A DNA stretch of 64,000 bases from Actinomycetes bacterium (lineage in GTDB: Bacteria; Actinomycetota; Thermoleophilia; BMS3ABIN01). The translations under genes were made by a program, and so were the position numbers. Location of the stretch: the NCBI GenBank assembly GCA_021791195.1, contig JAJYXB010000008.1, forward strand, positions 74,921 to 138,920. Direction: 5' to 3'. Of the stretch, positions 18,730 through 52,841 are shown in pieces (the stretch's first letter is position 1; each line of letters begins with the position of its first letter). Below the pieces are notes generated by a model. That model saw only the letters and a list, made by a program, of their open reading frames with translations. It was not told where the DNA came from and ran no database searches.

Positions 18730-21700
18730 TCAGATCCGGTTCAGCTCCGTGAGGCTGACACCCTTGTTGCTCCAGGCAGCGGCATCCTGCGGATCCAGTT
18801 CGATCGCCCGCTCGAAGCAGACGATGGCGTCGCTGAAGCGGCCCATGCTCTGCAGGCTGACACCCTTGCCATTCCAGGCTTTTTCATTGGCGGGATCGAT
18901 TTCCAGCTGCTTGTCGAAGCTGCGGACCGCCTCCGGGAACAGCTGCAGCTGGTGGAGGCATTCGCCCCGGCGGTACCAGGCCTGGACGTGCCGCGGCTCG
19001 GCCTTGATGGCGCGGTCAAAACATTCCACAGCCTTGGAAAACATCCCGAGGCTCTGAAGACTCTCGCCCTTGCCGAACCAGGCCGGAGCGCTATCGGGCT
19101 CCAGTTTGAGCGCCTTGTCGAAACAGTCCAGAGCTTCGCGGTCGCGCCCGAGGTGGTGCAGGGCCACCCCCTGGCTCGTCCAGGCTTCCGCCTGCATCGG
19201 CTCGAGCGCCAGCGCCTTCCCGAAACTGTTGATCGCAGCAAGGTAACAGCCGCGCGCCAGCAGGCTCTCGCCCTTGCCCGCGGCAGCCGCGGCATTTTCG
19301 CCGTCGATTTTCAGGGCCCGGTCATATGCCGCGCAGGCTTTTTCATGCCGGCCGAGGCCGCGCAGACTCTCCGCCTTGCCGAACCAGGCAGCGGCATTGC
19401 CGGCATCGGTCTTAAGAGTGCGCTCATAGGCATTGACTGCCTTTTCGTCACGGCCGAGTCCGCGCAGACTCTCCGCCTTGCCGAACCAGGCTTCGGCCCC
19501 GAAACCGTATTTGATCGCTTTTTCGTAACTCTTGAGCGATTCGTCCAGCTGCCCCTGACGGCGCAGGCTGTCAGCCTGGCCGAACCAGCCAGCCACATTC
19601 GTTTGATCCAGCGCCAAAGACTTGTCATACCAGGAAACGGCTTCAGCGAAATGTTCCAGGCTGCGATGGCTTTCGCCGCCGCCAAACCAGCTGGCGGCGC
19701 TGTCCGGGACCAGCTCCAGCGCCCTGCCGTAGCAACGCAGCGCCTCATCGAACCGGCCGAGGGCTCGCAGGCTCTCGCCGCGGGAATGCCAGGCAGCCGC
19801 GTCACCCGGATCGATCTCCACCGCTTTCTCAAAAAAGGTCAGTGCATCGCCAGGCATGCCCAGCTCGCGCAGGCTTTCGCCCCTGCCATACCAGGAGCGG
19901 CCGTTGCCTGGCTCCACCGCAAGCGCTTTCTCGTAGGCGGCAGCCGCCTCGTCGAACCGGGCCAGAGCACGCAGGCTCTCTGCCTTGCCGAACCAGGCCG
20001 GCTCGCTTTCAGCATCAACCGCGAGCACGGCTTCGAAGCTGGGGACTGCCTGCTGAAACTTTCCCAGCGAGCGCAGGCTTTCCGCCTGGCCCAGCCAGGC
20101 CGAAAGTTCCCCGCTGCCCCGCTTCAGCGCTGCCGCATATGCGGCAACCGCCTTGTCGTGCCGGCCCAGCAATCGCAGGCATTCACCTTTGCCAAGCCAG
20201 GCCGCCGCGCTGGCAGAGTTCTGCCTGAGCGCGCGGTTATAACTCGACAGGGCAGCGTCAAGGCGTCCAAGACTGCGCTGGCATTCGGCTTTCCCGAACC
20301 AGCCGTCAGCGTTCCCCGCGGCCAGCTTCAGCGACCGCTCATAGCTGGCGACCGCGGCCTGAAGCTGCCCCAGGCAACGCAGGCTCTCCGCCTTGCCGAA
20401 CCAGGCGGCCGGCTGCCTGATATCAAATTCAAGACTTGTATCAAAAGCGGCGACCGCTTCGATGTGACGTTGCAGGCTCCGCAGGCTCTCCGCCTTGCCG
20501 TGCCATGAGGCAGCTGCGCCAGGCTCCAGCGCCAGCGCCTGCTCGTAAGCACTGATGGCTGCTTCATGCTCGCCGAGCCCGCGGAGGCTCTCCGCCTTGC
20601 CGAACCAGGCGGCCTCGAGCTTCGCGTCCTGCGCCAGCGCCAGGTCAAAAGCCGCAACAGCGTCTGTGCCGCGGCCCAGGGCACGCAGGCTTTCGGCCTT
20701 GCCAAGCCAGGCCGGCGCAAGCCTTGGCTCCAGCTTGGTCAGAGCAATGAAGTGTTTTAGGGCCTCCTCGTTACGATTAAGCTGCCGGAGGCTCTCGGCC
20801 TTGCCGCACAGGGCCTGGGCATGCTTGGGCTGCGCCGCCAGCGCGCGGTCGTAGCCCTCGATCGCCCTGGCGAACCTGCCCAGAGCAAACCGGCTTTCAC
20901 CCAGGCCGAACCAGGCGGCGGCGTTCGCGGCGTCCAGCTTCAACGCTTTTTCATAAGCGGCGATCGCTTTTTCGTGCTGCCCCAGACCCCGCAGACTTTC
21001 GGCCTTGCCGAACCAGGCGGCCGCGTTCTTCGCGTCAAGCTTCAATGCCTTGTCGAAGGAAGCCACGGCGGCCTTGTAGTTGCCCAGATGGCGCAGGCTT
21101 TCCGCCTTGCCGAAACAGGCGGCCGCGTTCTTTGCATCAAACTTAAGAGCTTTGTCAAACCCGGTTACCGCCGCCTTGTAATGACCGAGGTGCAACTGGC
21201 AATCAGCCTTGCCGGTCAAGGAAGAGACCCGGCGGGGATCGATGGCCAGCGCCTTGTCGAATGATTTGACCGCCTTGCTGAAAAGCACCTGGGCCCGCAG
21301 GCTCTGACCCATCCCGCTCCAGGCTCCGGGGTGGCGCTGGTCCAGCTCCACTACCCGCTGGTAGGAAGCGACGGCCAGCTTGTGGCGGCCAAGCCTGCGC
21401 AGACTCTCTGCCTTGCCGAACCATGCGGGCGCCGACCGGGAGTCGAGCCGGGTTGCGCGTTCAAAGCTGCGCAACGCTTCAGCTTCCCGGTTCAGTTCCA
21501 GCAGCGAAAGTCCCTTGCCCAGCCAGACAGCGATGTTCTTGCTGTCTATTTTGAGCGCTTTATCAAATGAATCCACCGTAGCGGCCAGATCGCCCAGCGC
21601 GCGCCGGCTCTCGCCCAGGCCGTACCAGTATGGCGCCTGGGCGTCATCGAGCTGGATGGCCCGCTCGTAGGCGGTTGCGGCGTCGGCGTGACGTCCGAGC

Positions 21701-24700
21701 TGGCGCCGGCTCTCGCCCAGGCCGTACCAGTATGGCGCCTGGGCGTCATCGAGCTGGATGGCCCGCTCGTAGGCGGTTGCGGCGTCAGCGTGACGTCCGA
21801 GCTGGCGCCGGCTCTCGCCCAGGCCGTACCAGTATGGCGCCTGGGCGTCATCGAGCTGGATGGCCCGCTCGTAGGCGGTTGCGGCGTCCCGGAAGCGGCC
21901 GATGTCATGAAGGTTGAGCCCCCGGTGATACCAGGCAGCAGTGTTTTCGGGGTCAAATTTAAGCAGTTTATCAAGCGACTTCACTGCATCCGGGAAACGT
22001 CCCAGGCTTCTGAGACTGCCTGCTTTCTCAAACCAGGCAGCAGCATGACGGGGGACGAGTTCGAGGTGGCGCTCAAAACTTGATAGGGATTCTTCGAAAC
22101 GCCCGAGCGTTTTCAGTGCCAGCGCCTTCTCATACGCTGCATCCGCCAGCTGTGGATCAAACTCAAGCGCCCGGTCGCACGCCGATATGACCTCGTCATA
22201 CCGCTGAAGCCGCTTGAGGCTCATCGCCTTGCCGAACCAGCCGGAAACCGAACCCGGTTCGAGCTCGAGCAGCCTTTCATAGGCGGCGACAGCGCGTTCC
22301 TGATCGTCAGCCGCCGCCAGACTGCCTGCCTTTCCCAGCCAGGCCGCCAGATTATTGCCATCAAGAGACAACGCCTTGTCAAAGCTGGCAACTGCATCAG
22401 CGTGTCTTTCCAGGGCCTGCAACACCTGTCCGCGATTGATCCAGGTGATCAGGTCACGGGGATTGATCGCCAGGGCCTTGTCAAAACAGGCGATGGCTTC
22501 TTCGGCGGAGGTGCGCACGGGCCCTGCCTCGGCTTCTGCCGGTTCTGCGGGTGGTGCCGCTTCCGGTTCTGCGGATTCCGGTTCCGCTGGTTCCGGTTCC
22601 AAGGCAGGCTCGAGCACCTCGGGTTCTTCCGCGGCCAGCTCAGCTTCCAGAGCCAATTCGACTTCGGGAGCCGCTTCGGGTTCGGTCGCTTCCTCGACGT
22701 CGGCCGGCTCGGCGAGCACCTCGGGTTCTTCCGCGGCCACCTCAGCTTCCGCAGCCAATTCGACTTCGGGAGCTGTCTCGGGTTCTTCCGCTTCCTCGAC
22801 GTCGGCCGGCCCAGCGGGCACCTCGGATTCGTCCGCTTCCTCGACGTCGGCCGGCCCAGCGAGCACCTCGGGTTCTTCCGCGGCCACCTCAGCTTCCGCA
22901 GCCAATTCGACTTCGAGAGCTGTCTCGGGTTCTTCCGCTTCCTCGACGTCGGCCGGAGCATCGACTTCTCCCCCGGCTTCTACATGGCTCTCCGCGCCGA
23001 CGGATTCTGTGCTTTCGGAATCGGCGCCTGCCATCTCTTCCACAGGTACGGCGGCAGCCATGTCCACCGGTTCTTTCTCTTCAGATCCGGCCTCATGGAC
23101 CTCATCGGTCCCGGCGGCATTTTCTTCCGTTTCGTCAAGTAAAGCTCCATCCGCCGGCTCGTCAGGCAATGCCTCGTCCTCTTCAGCCGCAGACATACCA
23201 TCGCTCCCGGCAGACATGGCGACTTCAGATCCGGCAACCGGCGCCTCTTCAAGCTCCGGTTCAGCCGCGTTGGCAGAGGCAGGTTCGACGGTCAGCGTCT
23301 CTGTCGCGGCATCCCGGACCGGCTCATCCAAATCTCCCGCAGCGGTAGCGCCAGCCAGACCCAAAGCCGCCTGCGCTTCATCCCTGCCGCGCGCCGCCGC
23401 AGCATTGGCTGGGTCGAGCTCCAGGGCCCTGTCAAAGCTTTCCCTGGCAGCGCCGACGTCACCCGCACCCAGCAGCGCCGCGCCCCTGCCGGCCCACGCA
23501 GCCGCGGCGCGGCTGTCCTGCTCGATGGCGCGGTCGAAGGAACTGACCGCTTCTGCAAATCGCTGCTGGCGGCAAAGCGCCTCGCCTCGCGCCAGCCACG
23601 CGGCCCCGTTCCACGGATCGAGTTCGGTGATCTTGTCCAGCGTCGCAACCGCGTCTTCGAATCGTTCCGCGGCTATCAGCCCGCCAGCCAGGGCGATCTG
23701 CACGGGGACATCGAGCGGATCATATTGTCTGGCTTTGGTAAAACTGTCAACCGCGTCATCAATTCTGCCGATCCCCTGCAGGCAAAGCCCGCGCTCGAGC
23801 CAGACACGGGCGTTTCCTTCCTGGATTTCAATCGCCTTGTCAAACGAGTCGACCGCCTCGCGCAGCCGGTCGACTTTCCGCAGACAGGAGCCGCGGCCAA
23901 ACCAGATACGGGCCTCACCCTGTTCGAACTGAACTGCTTTATCAAAACTTTTCACAGCCTCGTGCAGGCGGCCGAGTTCCTCCAGCAGCTTGCCGTTCGC
24001 AAACCAGATCTCGCCGCTTTCCTGATCACGCGCGAGCGCCTCTTCGAAGGCCGCCAGTGCCGCTTCGGAGCGGCCGAGACTTTTGAGGATGATCCCCTTG
24101 TGGTACCAGACGGCGGGGTCGAGCAAAGAGGGGCCTTCCAGCTGCTCCAGCGAGGCCAGCGCGTCCTCATGACGCCCCAGGCTTTCCAGGCTCAGGCTCT
24201 TGTTGAACAGGGATTCCTGGTCGAACTGGTCAAGCTCCCGGGCCTGGTCATAACAGACAATCGCTTCCTCGAACCGGCCCAGATCCTGCAGCGCCAGCCC
24301 TTTGTTGAACCAGGCGGCCACGTTGCCCGCGTCGAGGTCGAGAGCCTTCTCGTAACAAAGCAGAGCTTCGTCGAACTTGCCAAGAGTGTGGAGGGCGCCG
24401 CCCTTGCGCGACCAGGCGCCGGAATCGTGGGCGTCGAGCTGGATGACCTCCTCGAAAGCCTTGACCGCTTCTTCGGGCCGGTTCAGTTCGAGCAGATTGG
24501 TCCCTATCGCCGTCCATGTCAACCTGTTCCAGGGGTCGAACTTGAGACTTTTCCTGAGGCTTTCGGTGGATTCGTCCAACTGGCCCATCCCGCGCAGGCA
24601 CATGCCGCGCGACAGCCAGATCTCGGAATCGCGCTCCTCGATCTCACGCACCTTGCCGAAGACCCTGACTGCTTTTTCGGGACGGCCCGCCCGCCGCAGC

Positions 24701-24867
24701 TTCTCGCCCTTGCGGATCAGCTCCCTGGCTTCATCGGCGTCATTTTTAAGCGCCTGATTGAACAGCTGCAGCGCTTCCTCGAAGGAGCGCTGTTGCTGGA
24801 GTTTGACACCTCTGTTGTAAATGGCTTTTGAGGGCCTGCCGCTCATGAGTTCATCTAGAATCGTCAT
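18730..24867 (-). CDS. Giant tetratricopeptide-repeat protein (2045 aa)
   Basis: Dozens of 34-aa TPRs (AWFGKAESLRGLGRHEKAIAAYEKALKLD) interrupted by an acidic low-complexity linker. Confidence 0.92.
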   Translation of the reverse strand: MTILDELMSGRPSKAIYNRGVKLQQQRSFEEALQLFNQALKNDADEARELIRKGEKLRRAGRPEKAVRVFGKVREIEERDSEIWLSRGMCLRGMGQLDESTESLRKSLKFDPWNRLTWTAIGTNLLELNRPEEAVKAFEEVIQLDAHDSGAWSRKGGALHTLGKFDEALLCYEKALDLDAGNVAAWFNKGLALQDLGRFEEAIVCYDQARELDQFDQESLFNKSLSLESLGRHEDALASLEQLEGPSLLDPAVWYHKGIILKSLGRSEAALAAFEEALARDQESGEIWFANGKLLEELGRLHEAVKSFDKAVQFEQGEARIWFGRGSCLRKVDRLREAVDSFDKAIEIQEGNARVWLERGLCLQGIGRIDDAVDSFTKARQYDPLDVPVQIALAGGLIAAERFEDAVATLDKITELDPWNGAAWLARGEALCRQQRFAEAVSSFDRAIEQDSRAAAAWAGRGAALLGAGDVGAARESFDRALELDPANAAAARGRDEAQAALGLAGATAAGDLDEPVRDAATETLTVEPASANAAEPELEEAPVAGSEVAMSAGSDGMSAAEEDEALPDEPADGALLDETEENAAGTDEVHEAGSEEKEPVDMAAAVPVEEMAGADSESTESVGAESHVEAGGEVDAPADVEEAEEPETALEVELAAEAEVAAEEPEVLAGPADVEEADESEVPAGPADVEEAEEPETAPEVELAAEAEVAAEEPEVLAEPADVEEATEPEAAPEVELALEAELAAEEPEVLEPALEPEPAEPESAEPEAAPPAEPAEAEAGPVRTSAEEAIACFDKALAINPRDLITWINRGQVLQALERHADAVASFDKALSLDGNNLAAWLGKAGSLAAADDQERAVAAYERLLELEPGSVSGWFGKAMSLKRLQRYDEVISACDRALEFDPQLADAAYEKALALKTLGRFEESLSSFERHLELVPRHAAAWFEKAGSLRSLGRFPDAVKSLDKLLKFDPENTAAWYHRGLNLHDIGRFRDAATAYERAIQLDDAQAPYWYGLGESRRQLGRHADAATAYERAIQLDDAQAPYWYGLGESRRQLGRHADAATAYERAIQLDDAQAPYWYGLGESRRALGDLAATVDSFDKALKIDSKNIAVWLGKGLSLLELNREAEALRSFERATRLDSRSAPAWFGKAESLRRLGRHKLAVASYQRVVELDQRHPGAWSGMGQSLRAQVLFSKAVKSFDKALAIDPRRVSSLTGKADCQLHLGHYKAAVTGFDKALKFDAKNAAACFGKAESLRHLGNYKAAVASFDKALKLDAKNAAAWFGKAESLRGLGQHEKAIAAYEKALKLDAANAAAWFGLGESRFALGRFARAIEGYDRALAAQPKHAQALCGKAESLRQLNRNEEALKHFIALTKLEPRLAPAWLGKAESLRALGRGTDAVAAFDLALAQDAKLEAAWFGKAESLRGLGEHEAAISAYEQALALEPGAAASWHGKAESLRSLQRHIEAVAAFDTSLEFDIRQPAAWFGKAESLRCLGQLQAAVASYERSLKLAAGNADGWFGKAECQRSLGRLDAALSSYNRALRQNSASAAAWLGKGECLRLLGRHDKAVAAYAAALKRGSGELSAWLGQAESLRSLGKFQQAVPSFEAVLAVDAESEPAWFGKAESLRALARFDEAAAAYEKALAVEPGNGRSWYGRGESLRELGMPGDALTFFEKAVEIDPGDAAAWHSRGESLRALGRFDEALRCYGRALELVPDSAASWFGGGESHRSLEHFAEAVSWYDKSLALDQTNVAGWFGQADSLRRQGQLDESLKSYEKAIKYGFGAEAWFGKAESLRGLGRDEKAVNAYERTLKTDAGNAAAWFGKAESLRGLGRHEKACAAYDRALKIDGENAAAAAGKGESLLARGCYLAAINSFGKALALEPMQAEAWTSQGVALHHLGRDREALDCFDKALKLEPDSAPAWFGKGESLQSLGMFSKAVECFDRAIKAEPRHVQAWYRRGECLHQLQLFPEAVRSFDKQLEIDPANEKAWNGKGVSLQSMGRFSDAIVCFERAIELDPQDAAAWSNKGVSLTELNRI
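21600..21890 (-). repeat. 102-bp near-identical tandem repeat, 3 copies, inside the TPR gene
   Basis: gccgtaccagtatggcgcctgg recurs at 21619, 21721 and 21823; encodes APYWYGLGESRRQLGRHADAATAYERAIQLDDAQ. Confidence 0.95.
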
Positions 24868-45311: not shown

Positions 45312-46376
45312 ATTTTAGTTGGTTTCCTGAAAAACGCAGTCAAACAAAAAAAATCCCTGTCAATCCCGATCCTCTTTCTCCTCACTCTCGTCTCAATTCT
45401 CCTGATTTCCACATCCGCTACGGTCGCGTCAGCCGGTGAGCTGGCCGCTACCAATCAGCAGATCGGCGATCTCCAGAACCGCTCCCGGACGCTGGATTCG
45501 GATTATCAGCAGGCGCTTTCAAACCTCGTTTCTGTGGACAGCCAGGTCAATCGCGAAGCGGACCAGCTGAACGCCAACACCAGCAGGCGGGCGCAGATAC
45601 AGGCATCGATCGCCGCGGAGCAGCAACAGCTGCAGAGCTTCAGGCAGCAACTTGCCGACCGCCAGAAGGCGCTGGACAATCGCCTGCGCAGCTCTTACAA
45701 GAGCGACGACGCCGATTACCTGAGTGTGGTGTTCGGCGCGGACAATTTCAGCGATTTCCTCAACAAGGTGGACGCGATCAACACGATCGCCCAGAGCGAC
45801 AAGAATCTGATCGCTTCCTTCTTCAATGCGAAACAGCAGGTGCAGAATGACCTCGACAACCTGAACTCACAGCAGCGGGAGCTCGATTCCCTGATCGGCT
45901 CGCTGAGCACAGAGCAGCAGAATCTGCTCGCGGCCAGGCAGCATCAGCAAAGCGTGGTCGACTCGCTCCGGAGTCAGAAGCAGGCCAATGCCGGCGAACT
46001 GGCGCAGTTGCAGTCGCAGGCGGCCGGCATCGAGGCCAGAATGAATACAATCCAGCAGCAGGTCGACGCCAGCAGCGATACCGGCGCCAGAGGCGGCGGA
46101 GGCAGCTCATCGGCCGGCGGCACCAACATCACCGTGCTGGCAACGGCATACTGCCTGGCTGGCACCACAGCCACCGGCATGCCTGTCGGGCGCGGCGTCA
46201 TCGCCGTCGATCCCCGGGTGATCCCGCTCGGGTCGCGCGTGCACGTGTCTGGCTACGGCGACGCGATCGCGGCCGACACCGGCGGCGCGATCAAAGGCAA
46301 CCGCATCGATGTCTGGCTGCCCTGCGGTGAGGCATACGCCTGGGGAAGCCGGACCGTGACCGTCACCATCTATTAG
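45312..46376 (+). CDS. Secreted coiled-coil protein with C-terminal 3D (Asp-Asp-Asp) domain, cell-wall associated
   Basis: Signal peptide KNAVKQKKSLSIPILFLLTLVSILLISTSATVASA; C-terminal TATGMPVGRGVIAVDPRVIPLGSRVHVSGYGDAIAADTGGAIKGNRIDVWLP; start codon uncertain (ATT at 45312 behind GGAGG). Confidence 0.85.
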   Translation: MLVGFLKNAVKQKKSLSIPILFLLTLVSILLISTSATVASAGELAATNQQIGDLQNRSRTLDSDYQQALSNLVSVDSQVNREADQLNANTSRRAQIQASIAAEQQQLQSFRQQLADRQKALDNRLRSSYKSDDADYLSVVFGADNFSDFLNKVDAINTIAQSDKNLIASFFNAKQQVQNDLDNLNSQQRELDSLIGSLSTEQQNLLAARQHQQSVVDSLRSQKQANAGELAQLQSQAAGIEARMNTIQQQVDASSDTGARGGGGSSSAGGTNITVLATAYCLAGTTATGMPVGRGVIAVDPRVIPLGSRVHVSGYGDAIAADTGGAIKGNRIDVWLPCGEAYAWGSRTVTVTIY

Positions 46377-46446: not shown

Positions 46447-46545
46447 TCATTGTAAACTAGCAGTTGTAGTATTTGTGGCAGCAAGACGGGCTGCCCCGCC
46501 GGCGAGCAGCCGGAAAGCGGGAGCCCGCCGGCGAAAAATCGGAGG

Positions 46546-47058
46546 GTGGTGAAATTGAGAAACAAGAGCGGAAGGATATTTTTAGGGATCCTGGCCGCCG
46601 GACTGATGGCGGCAGCCGCGACTGTGCTGGCTTCCTGTGGCAGCGGCAGCAGCAGCGGCTCCGGCTCGGATATTGCGAATTACAAGTGGTCATCCACCAC
46701 CGCCGCGATCCAGCTGCCGGCCTTCGTCTACGCCCCCACCGCGCCGAAGAACGCGGTCACGGCGTACAAGTTCGCGCTGGAACATCCGGAACTGCTGAGC
46801 AGGGTTCCTTGCTATTGTGGCTGCGGCCAGGAATCAGGGCACAAGAGTAACCTCGACTGCTTCATCAAGACCCGCAGCGGCCCGGAGGTGACCTTTGACA
46901 ATCACGGCGCCGGCTGAGACATCTGTGTCAATATCGCACTGGACGTGCTCCAGTGGAATCAGCAGGGAATGTCGATCAAGGACATCAGGGCCAAGATCGA
47001 TGACAAGTACGGCAACGGCAAGTTCGGGCCGGGTACGCCGACTCCGCCGGTAACCTGA
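46546..47058 (+). CDS. PCYCGC-domain lipoprotein; candidate selenoprotein with in-frame TGA (Sec124) at 46915-46917
   Basis: GTG start behind GGAGG, lipobox LASC, PCYCGCGQESGHKSNLDCFI...VTFDNHGAG-[TGA]-DICVNIALDVLQWNQQGMSIKDIRAKIDDKYGNGKFGPGTPTPPVT*; SECIS-like hairpin 46937-46955. Confidence 0.85.
46937..46955 (+). promoter_or_regulatory. Candidate bacterial SECIS hairpin
   Basis: CACTGGA-CGTGC-TCCAGTG: perfect 7-bp stem, 5-nt loop with G at position 2, loop begins 27 nt after TGA. Confidence 0.65.
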
Positions 47059-47075
47059 TCCGGCAACGCATCACC

Positions 47076-47100
47076 AGGGCGCCCGCAAGGGCGCCTTTTT
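47076..47100 (+). terminator. Terminator after PCYCGC gene
   Basis: GGCGCCC-GCAA-GGGCGCC then TTTTTT. Confidence 0.8.
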
Positions 47101-49674
<2,574 letters not shown>

Positions 49675-49678
<4 letters not shown>

Positions 49679-50160
49679 GGCCGGCTGCCTTCGCTGGCGG
49701 AGGCGCGCCCGGCAGCCGCGCTGCCGCCCGCCCCGACCACGGAGACGGCATCGCCGGCGGAGACTGTCGCGCCTTCCAGCACCACGGCAAAAACTCCCTC
49801 GCGCGGCATGACGCAATCGCCCGCCTGGCGGAAGATCTCGCAGCGGCCGTGGCATTTCTTGCCGATCTGACTGATGCGCACCAGGGCGTCGCCCAGGCGC
49901 AGCAGCGTTCCCACCGGCAGCGAAACCAGGTCGATTCCTCCGGTGGTGATGTTCTCGGCAAAATCTCCCGGGCCCACGTCCAGTCCCTTCGCCCGGATCT
50001 TTTCAATGCTCTCGGCCGCCAGCAGACTCAGTTGACGGTGCCAGCCGCCGGCGTGGCCGTCGCCGGCGACGCCATGCCCGGGCCGCAGCTCGGCGCTGGC
50101 GGCCGGCGCCTTGCGCGTGCCCTTGGCGGCCGAGATGTTGACGGATATTATCTCAGCCAT
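49675..50160 (-). CDS. MOSC domain protein
   Basis: [36 protein letters not shown], small MOSC linked to moa genes. Confidence 0.88.
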
Positions 50161-50647
50161 TTTTTGTCGTCCTCTTAATGTCGCCCGATCTGCCGCCGCG
50201 CTTCTCCAGCAGCATGACTTCGCCGATCACCATTTCCCTGTCAACCGCCTTGCACATGTCGTATATGGTCAGCGCCGCTACCGCCGCGGCGGTCAGCGCC
50301 TCCATCTCCACCCCGGTCTTGCCGGAAAGACTCACGGTAGCCTCGATATCTACGCCGGTCTCATCCAGCCGGAAATCGACGCCGGCATGCTCGATAGAAA
50401 GCGGGTGGCACATGGGGATCAGCCGCGCCGTCTCCTTGGCCGCCATGATGCCGGCTACCCGCGCCACCGAAAGCACGTCGCCCTTGGGCAACGCCTGTTG
50501 CTTGATCAGCGCCAGCGTCTCCGGAGCCATGCTGATGCGCGCGCTCGCGCGCGCCGTGCGGGCGGTGGCCGGTTTCTCGCCCACATCGACCATGCGGGCA
50601 GCACCGGTTTCGTCCAGATGGGAGAACCTGCCGGAGTCTTCGCTCAT
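50153..50647 (-). CDS. moaC: Cyclic pyranopterin monophosphate synthase
   Basis: [64 protein letters not shown]. Confidence 0.96.
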
Positions 50648-51639
50648 CAGCCTCCGATCCGGGACATCTGCCGCCGCGCGCCGCCATCGGCGCGGCGATC
50701 GTATTTCTTGCGGCTGATCGCGTCGGTGATCGACCGCACCAGCCGGCGGCGGCCGCCGGCGATCAGCGGCCGGATGTCGGTTTCGTCGCTGCTGAAAAGG
50801 CATCCCAGCAGACGGCCGTCGGCGGTAAGACGCAGGCGGTTGCAGCGCGGGCAGAAATGATCGCTCACCGGGCTGATGAAGCCGATGGTGCCGGCGGCGC
50901 CGGCAAAACTGTAGTAGCGCGCCGGACCGGCGCCGGCCGGTGACGCCGCGGGCATCAGCCTGGCATGCTCATGCAGCGCTTCGAGGATGCGACTGCGGGG
51001 CACGAACCGGCCGGCGGCGAAGTGGCCGCGGCCCACCGGCATCAGTTCGATGAATCGCACATGCACCGGATGATCCCGGCACAGGGCGACGAACCGGTCC
51101 AACTCGCGCTCGAGCCCGTCCATGGCGACGACGTTGATCTTCACCGGCTCGAACCCGGCCGCCAGCGCCGCCTTAAGCCCTGCGAGCACCGGTTCCAGGC
51201 GGGCTCCGCCGGTGATCCGGAAGAAGCGGTCCGGGTCCAGGCTGTCGATGCTGATGTTCAGCCGCGCCAGCCCGGCGGCCTTGAGGCCGCCGGCGTGCTC
51301 CGCCAGCAGGGAACCATTGGTCGTCATAGCCAGGTCTTCGATCCCGCGCACACCGGCCAGAGCGCCGATCAGCCCTGTCAGCCCGCGCCGGACCAGCGGT
51401 TCACCGCCGGTGATGCGCACATGTGTGATCCCGGCCTCCACCGCCGCTTCGGCGAAGCTGACTATCTCTTCGTAATTGAGGATATCGGCATGACGCAGCG
51501 GGGGAACGCCTTCGGGCGGCATGCAGTAACGGCAGCGGAAATTGCAGCGGTCGGTTACGGATATGCGCAGATAGTCCACACCGCCCCGGACGCCGGGGCC
51601 ACAGGCTTCCTTTTCGGGGTGGTTGTCCTGTTGCGTCAT
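50647..51639 (-). CDS. moaA: GTP 3',8-cyclase (radical SAM)
   Basis: [22 protein letters not shown]; second cluster [20 protein letters not shown]. Confidence 0.96.
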
Positions 51640-52841
51640 TCCTCTTCCTTCCCCGTTTCCCGGTTTCGGATGCTTCCGGCGAGCCCGTATCTGACCGTCA
51701 GGAAAGCGGCTACGCCGGCGACGTCCTCCCGGTCGAACAGCGGCACCGATGCCGCCGCGCCGGGGCCGCCGATTACCGCGATCAGATCCGATTCACGGCA
51801 GACCAGCCGCCCGCCGCCGGTAACCTCGATCCTGTCGGCCGGTTCGCGCTTGAAGCCTTCGGCTATGATCAGATCCGCCTCGCCTGCCAGGCCGCACAGC
51901 GTCCGCAGGTCCGGCTCCCGCTCCAGCCGCCTGAACGCGGCCACGCCCTCCGGTGCCGAGATCAGCACCGAACGCGCGCCCGCGCGCGACAGCCTCCAGG
52001 TGTCGGTTCCCTCGCGGTCGAGCGAGAGCCCGTGTACGTCGTGTTTGATATATGCTATCCCGCTGCCGCGCGCTGTCAACACCGGGACCAGCTTTTCCAG
52101 GAAAGTCGTCTTGCCGGAATCTTTCCGGCCGACGAAGCAGACCAGCGGTGCGCCCCGGCCGGCGCCGTCCGCCGCGGGCGCTGGACCGGCGGCGCGGGCG
52201 GCCGCCCTGGCCGCGCTCAGCCGCCGCTCTGCCTCAAGCAGGTCGGCCGGAGTATTGACGTTGAAGAACGCGTCCACTTCTCCGGCAAACGCCGGCATGG
52301 CGCCGCTGTCCACGAAGCGCGTCCGGATGTCTCCCAGCAGCGACTGGATGCTCAACTCGCCCCGCTCGATACGGCGTCGCACCAGCGCCAGGCAGCTCTT
52401 GCTGTAAACGGCGCAAAGCGGCTCCGGGCCGCGCCGGCTGCGCGGCACCACGGCATCGGCCTCCCCGGCCATGCCTGCGAGCGCCCTGACCGCCGCCGGC
52501 GGCACGAAAGGCAGGTCGCAGGCGATCACGAAACAGAGGTGATGGCGGGCCGCGGCCAGTGCGGTATAGACGCCGGCCAGCGCCGCGCCGGCGGGAAAAT
52601 GGTCGGCAACGTGCGGCAGCCCGAGCTGCTCGTAGGCGCCCGCGTCGCCGCCGGCGATGAAGATGTCGCCGCTGAGCGGCCGGAGTGCGTCGGCCAGGCG
52701 GACGATGAGCGGCCGGTTATCCAGCCGGGCCAGCGCCTTGTCCATGCCCATGCGCCGGCTTCTGCCGCCAGCGAGGATGGCGATGGAAAACGGCTCAGCC
52801 ATTCCCGCGCCCGGCGCGGGAGCGCCGCTTTTGCGGTCCAC
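51636..52841 (-). CDS. MobA-MobB fusion (molybdenum cofactor guanylyltransferase + GTP-binding adaptor)
   Basis: SIAILAGGRSRRMGMDKAL (MobA) and VCFVGRKDSGKTTFLEKLVPVL (MobB) in one ORF. Confidence 0.9.
   Translation of the reverse strand: MDRKSGAPAPGAGMAEPFSIAILAGGRSRRMGMDKALARLDNRPLIVRLADALRPLSGDIFIAGGDAGAYEQLGLPHVADHFPAGAALAGVYTALAAARHHLCFVIACDLPFVPPAAVRALAGMAGEADAVVPRSRRGPEPLCAVYSKSCLALVRRRIERGELSIQSLLGDIRTRFVDSGAMPAFAGEVDAFFNVNTPADLLEAERRLSAARAAARAAGPAPAADGAGRGAPLVCFVGRKDSGKTTFLEKLVPVLTARGSGIAYIKHDVHGLSLDREGTDTWRLSRAGARSVLISAPEGVAAFRRLEREPDLRTLCGLAGEADLIIAEGFKREPADRIEVTGGGRLVCRESDLIAVIGGPGAAASVPLFDREDVAGVAAFLTVRYGLAGSIRNRETGKEEE

Follow-up and report, generated by a model that had tools for sequence, protein, structure and literature searches.

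Does the in-frame TGA at 46915-46917 terminate a short lipoprotein, or does it encode selenocysteine (Sec) in a longer one? The locus lies in a window of 64,000 nucleotides, the whole stretch of DNA that was analyzed, and the sequence confirms the continuity of the reading frame noted in the preliminary description, which remains open from TTG 46555 past the TGA to a second TGA, the stop at 47056-47058. Standard annotation would cut such genes off just before their CxxC motif. The gene and its immediate surroundings comprise the following features:

45534..46376, + strand: upstream neighbor, a protein with a PcsB coiled coil and a 3D domain, used as a syntenic marker
46541..46545, + strand: Shine-Dalgarno-like GGAGG, 9 nt before TTG 46555 (sequence)
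46555..47058, + strand: predicted PCYCGC-family selenoprotein lipoprotein of 167 residues with Sec121 (PF13798 match and translation)
46624..46638, + strand: lipobox-like VLASC, whose putative lipidated Cys is residue 28 when numbered from the TTG (inferred from sequence)
46810..46824, + strand: CYCGC codons of the PCYCGC motif, Cys86, Cys88, and Cys90 (three Cys invariant in 35 homologues)
46915..46917, + strand: in-frame TGA, predicted Sec and first residue of UDIC (TGA in 25/35 and TGC in 10/35 homologues)
46924..46926, + strand: TGT, Cys124 of UDIC (13 relatives have TGA here, giving a second Sec)
46937..46955, + strand: predicted bacterial SECIS hairpin with a 7-bp stem and the 5-nt loop CGTGC (pairing and compensatory changes)
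47078..47102, + strand: terminator-like hairpin, GGCGCC-CGCAAG-GGCGCC, with a T run after it (read from sequence)
47101..49236, - strand: convergent neighbor, the NAD-dependent DNA ligase LigA, used as a syntenic marker

Translation had been assumed to start at GTG 46546. TTG 46555 is the more likely start, because GGAGG precedes it by 9 nt and homologue L049 carries an in-frame TTG, its GTG GTG being out of frame. Sec121 in this TTG numbering corresponds to Sec124 in the earlier GTG numbering. The product is read as a putative exported lipoprotein; VLASC, picked by eye in the translation, follows a hydrophobic stretch. Molybdenum cofactor genes (MoCF_biosynth, Mob_synth_C radical SAM, and NTP_transf_3/MobB; 49166-52841, - strand) adjoin ligA. 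Elsewhere in the window, a 2045-aa ORF (18730-24867, - strand) spans tandem 102-bp repeats arranged in three arrays (20905-21214, 21601-21888, and 22611-22836), one of which shows 99% matching.

With Sec read as Cys, the protein scores 110.6 bits against PF13798 (PCYCGC; cut-off 25), covering profile positions 7-151 of 153, in agreement with the Pfam family first suggested. The same reading scores 85.5 bits against NF041379, which NCBIfam calls 'CYCXC family (seleno)protein', OS_HP4. This is 4.5 bits below the cut-off of 90, so that model would not name the protein, which is therefore filed under PF13798 and not as a formal NF041379 equivalog. The selenoprotein had been presented as undescribed, which is wrong: a 2026 inventory lists PF13798/CYCXC/OS_HP4 as a UxxC selenoprotein family with one Sec (PMC13188914, Table 1), and OS_HP4 with the motif UxxC also appears in PMC9312934. 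Because the C-terminal CxxC is the only CxxC of the family, PCxCGC being a CxCxC, we infer that the OS_HP4 Sec site is the same as the one described here. With its UDIC, the window protein has the same UxxC motif and is a new member, from an actinobacterium, of this listed Sec family.

Comparison of 35 PF13798 genes from 19 genomes of the same taxonomic family, read in frame, revealed TGA at the codon in question in 25 genes and TGC in the other 10, with 12 UxxC, 13 UxxU, and 10 CxxC motifs. The 25 TGA genes span six genera, and in all of them the frame runs on to a common C-terminus. Outside the family but within the same phylum, Cys occupies this position in 7/7 readable homologues, near-identical copies within one genome being taken once. 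The placement of the TGA at the first Cys of a conserved CxxC is thereby supported, and this TGA/TGC pattern identifies the site as an exchangeable Cys/Sec position rather than a stop. Seven positions are invariant in 35/35 homologues (C87, C89, C91, C103, H118, C/U122, and C/U125 in aligned-row numbering). A sequencing error in a TGC or TGT codon, one of the objections foreseen at the outset, is refuted, with a vanishingly small residual probability: this TGA recurs in six species of the genus that were assembled separately, and 25 genes carry it in all.

Comparison within the genus gives a dN/dS of 0.11 upstream of the TGA and 0.20 downstream of it; over all 25 Sec members, the values are 0.19 and 0.37, respectively. 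As judged from these substitution rates, purifying selection acts on both parts of the gene. In the tree, the 25 Sec members form a group that includes just two CxxC rows and has modest support (87/90), and the three label states (UxxC, UxxU, and CxxC) require four changes, for which the simplest reading would be one Sec gain and at least one loss.

The source genome (2.15 Mb, 97% complete) holds all four components for which a search had been recommended. Matches to selA (589.5 bits), selB (360.4 bits), and selD (361.4 bits) accompany a tRNA-Sec at C9:38100-38191 (70.6 bits), which ARAGORN also calls, as SeC(tca). The selD gene (L056, G000:C10:58012-58944) is itself a selenoprotein gene, with its own in-frame TGA in HGSGUACK. 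UGA might instead be decoded as a different amino acid, by an altered genetic code or a near-cognate suppressor, but the genome has a complete Sec trait, the Sec column contains only Cys among non-TGA homologues, and the same gene terminates with TGA, making this reading highly improbable.

The hairpin pointed out in the preliminary description is present, with a perfect stem of CACTGGA (46937-46943) and TCCAGTG (46949-46955), the loop CGTGC at 46944-46948, a G in the first two loop positions, and a TGA-to-loop spacer of 26 nt. Across 21 Sec members that share one hairpin register, 96.6% of stem cells are paired, and compensatory changes occur in 13 cells against a shuffled mean of 3.9, with 0/500 shuffles reaching as high a count. 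Almost no compensatory changes appear when the stem register is displaced by 1-3 nt, and this control carries weight because the shuffle test can be inflated when sequences are related. In the remaining four Sec members, a hairpin occurs about as far from the TGA, with its register shifted. Most Cys members are without a comparable hairpin, the exception being L043 at -7.0 kcal/mol.

An ordinary stop would mean either a shorter lipoprotein of 120 residues or a pseudogene in decay, the frame beyond the TGA being a relic. A hairpin would then be a matter of chance, and SECIS-like hairpins of equal or higher stability do follow 184/1946 TGAs in the window (9.5%), so that the hairpin by itself was rejected as proof of Sec. 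Codon-preserving shuffles of individual genes, with p ~0.07 for the window gene alone and p 0.01-0.27 over the Sec members, were likewise taken as suggestive and not as proof. What exceeds chance is conservation, namely the TGA/Cys column, the co-variation of the stem, and dN/dS after the TGA. A stop is at odds with the 25 genes in six genera that keep both the TGA and an open frame to the common C-terminus, with the within-genus dN/dS of 0.20 after the TGA, with Cys paralogues that read on past the TGA position, and with the co-varying stem, and it retains very little probability. On this comparative evidence, the product of 46555-47058 is very probably a Sec-containing PCYCGC lipoprotein. 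Sec would be inserted at UGA 46915 by SelA, SelB, SelD, and tRNA-Sec, directed by the hairpin at 46937-46955.

The relatives of the gene bear on what the Sec residue might do. UxxU, with TGA at both positions and thus two Sec, occurs in 13/25 Sec genes, and no listing of UxxU for the PF13798 family was found in the literature searched. A CDF cation-efflux gene lies directly upstream on the same strand in 12/13 UxxU genes, and the 13th lies one gene further on in the same CDF cluster; in 6/6 operons checked, the CDF genes follow a regulator of the ArsR family. Genome G009 has the order 3D-domain gene, ArsR, CDF, UxxU gene, and convergent ligA; the window has the 3D-domain gene, the PCYCGC gene, and convergent ligA, with no adjoining CDF gene. 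Going by gene order, the window gene occupies the equivalent syntenic position, where the ArsR-CDF-CDF block is missing. An operon of ArsR, a small CDF, and a large CDF is present on contig C25 of the source genome (L106, G000:C25:2500-8000), and no PCYCGC gene was found on that contig. Two loci (L029 and L038; G010:C2 and G014:C153) contain tandem pairs of Sec PCYCGC genes behind CDF genes; the motif of the second copy differs between the two genomes, UTTC against UPTU.

Other members of the family have other neighbors. Some UxxC members adjoin a RelA/SpoT gene, and others sit at the 3D/ligA site. CxxC members adjoin Fer4_5 membrane proteins, five cases having been tested for this class; the Cys-only paralogues L040, L044, L032, L043, and L052 stand beside membrane proteins with two Fer4_5 domains. 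These Fer4_5-linked Cys-only paralogues possibly constitute a second functional class.

The six conserved Cys/Sec residues and one His (PCxCGC, DCF, and H..xU..C) could form an extracytoplasmic site for binding or transfer of a soft metal, probably a substrate of CDF pumps, with the selenolate serving as a metal ligand or as a redox switch that responds to metal. The soft-metal site is proposed because of these candidate ligands and because the nearest Sec relatives are linked to ArsR-CDF genes, and we place the chances of a metal role for the PCYCGC Sec protein at about even. Because UxxC and CxxC relatives have other neighbors, not every member need share this role. More tentatively, and with the odds somewhat against it, PCYCGC selenoproteins may be extracytoplasmic partners of ArsR-controlled CDF exporters that use UxxC or UxxU as soft-metal ligands, the window gene being a single-Sec ortholog whose operon block lies apart from it. 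UxxU relatives with two Sec, found in ArsR-CDF operons, offer a testable hypothesis for an uncharacterized family, namely soft-metal binding beside an efflux pump. With regard to the UxxC redox pair proposed earlier, the replacement of Cys by Sec is supported; a simple thiol-disulfide pair would be one possibility, and the gene context of the nearest Sec relatives points to metal handling.

The strongest alternative to a metal-binding protein is a CcmH-like thiol-disulfide reductant with a mainly redox function. Structure prediction covered four sequences, not all 35 homologues. Helices dominate the AlphaFold2 model (mean pLDDT 74.6; about 90 in the core), which also contains a small hairpin. 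A PDB fold search with the model returned no match to a thioredoxin fold and no significant match of any kind; its two best matches are CcmH domains, in favor of the reductant reading, but at E-values of at least 1.5. A PDB sequence search returned nothing relevant. Alignment to the CcmH profile with hhalign recovers a C-terminal helix motif (G.s.kEI....YG; probability 54.7), and UxxC is a classical redox motif, yet the alignment extends over only 26 C-terminal columns and excludes the CxxC. CcmH homology was rejected, since the last helix alone aligns, and the weak resemblance serves as a lead. No CcmH gene was found in the source genome or in two other family members sampled, and the CDF/ArsR context favors metals, leaving a CcmH-like reductant less likely than a metal-binding protein. 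The window protein and CcmH have in common a predicted extracytoplasmic location, a CxxC, a helical structure, and a similar last helix; they differ in that the CxxC lies outside the aligned part and CcmH is without the PCYCGC cluster.

The predicted Sec-containing lipoprotein can be set beside three further groups. Bacillales PCYCGC lipoproteins share with it the PCYCGC domain, conserved extra Cys, and, putatively, the lipobox, according to the part of PMC13068155 that concerns them; there, Parageobacillus AOT13_14730 adjoins an Fe3+ substrate-binding protein gene, no function is assigned, and Cys, not Sec, is mentioned. NF041115, a 'metal-binding protein' and metal-tied UxxU Sec protein (PMC13188914), resembles the present family in the paired-Sec UxxU of the window gene's relatives, whereas its domain, like those of other metal-handling selenoproteins, is different. 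The third group is CYCXC/OS_HP4, which has the same Pfam family, one Sec, and the UxxC motif. The window gene differs in being actinobacterial and 4.5 bits under the NCBI cut-off, and its relatives carry UxxU, for which PMC13188914 gives no instance in the family. The listed Sec family now reaches an uncultured actinobacterial lineage.
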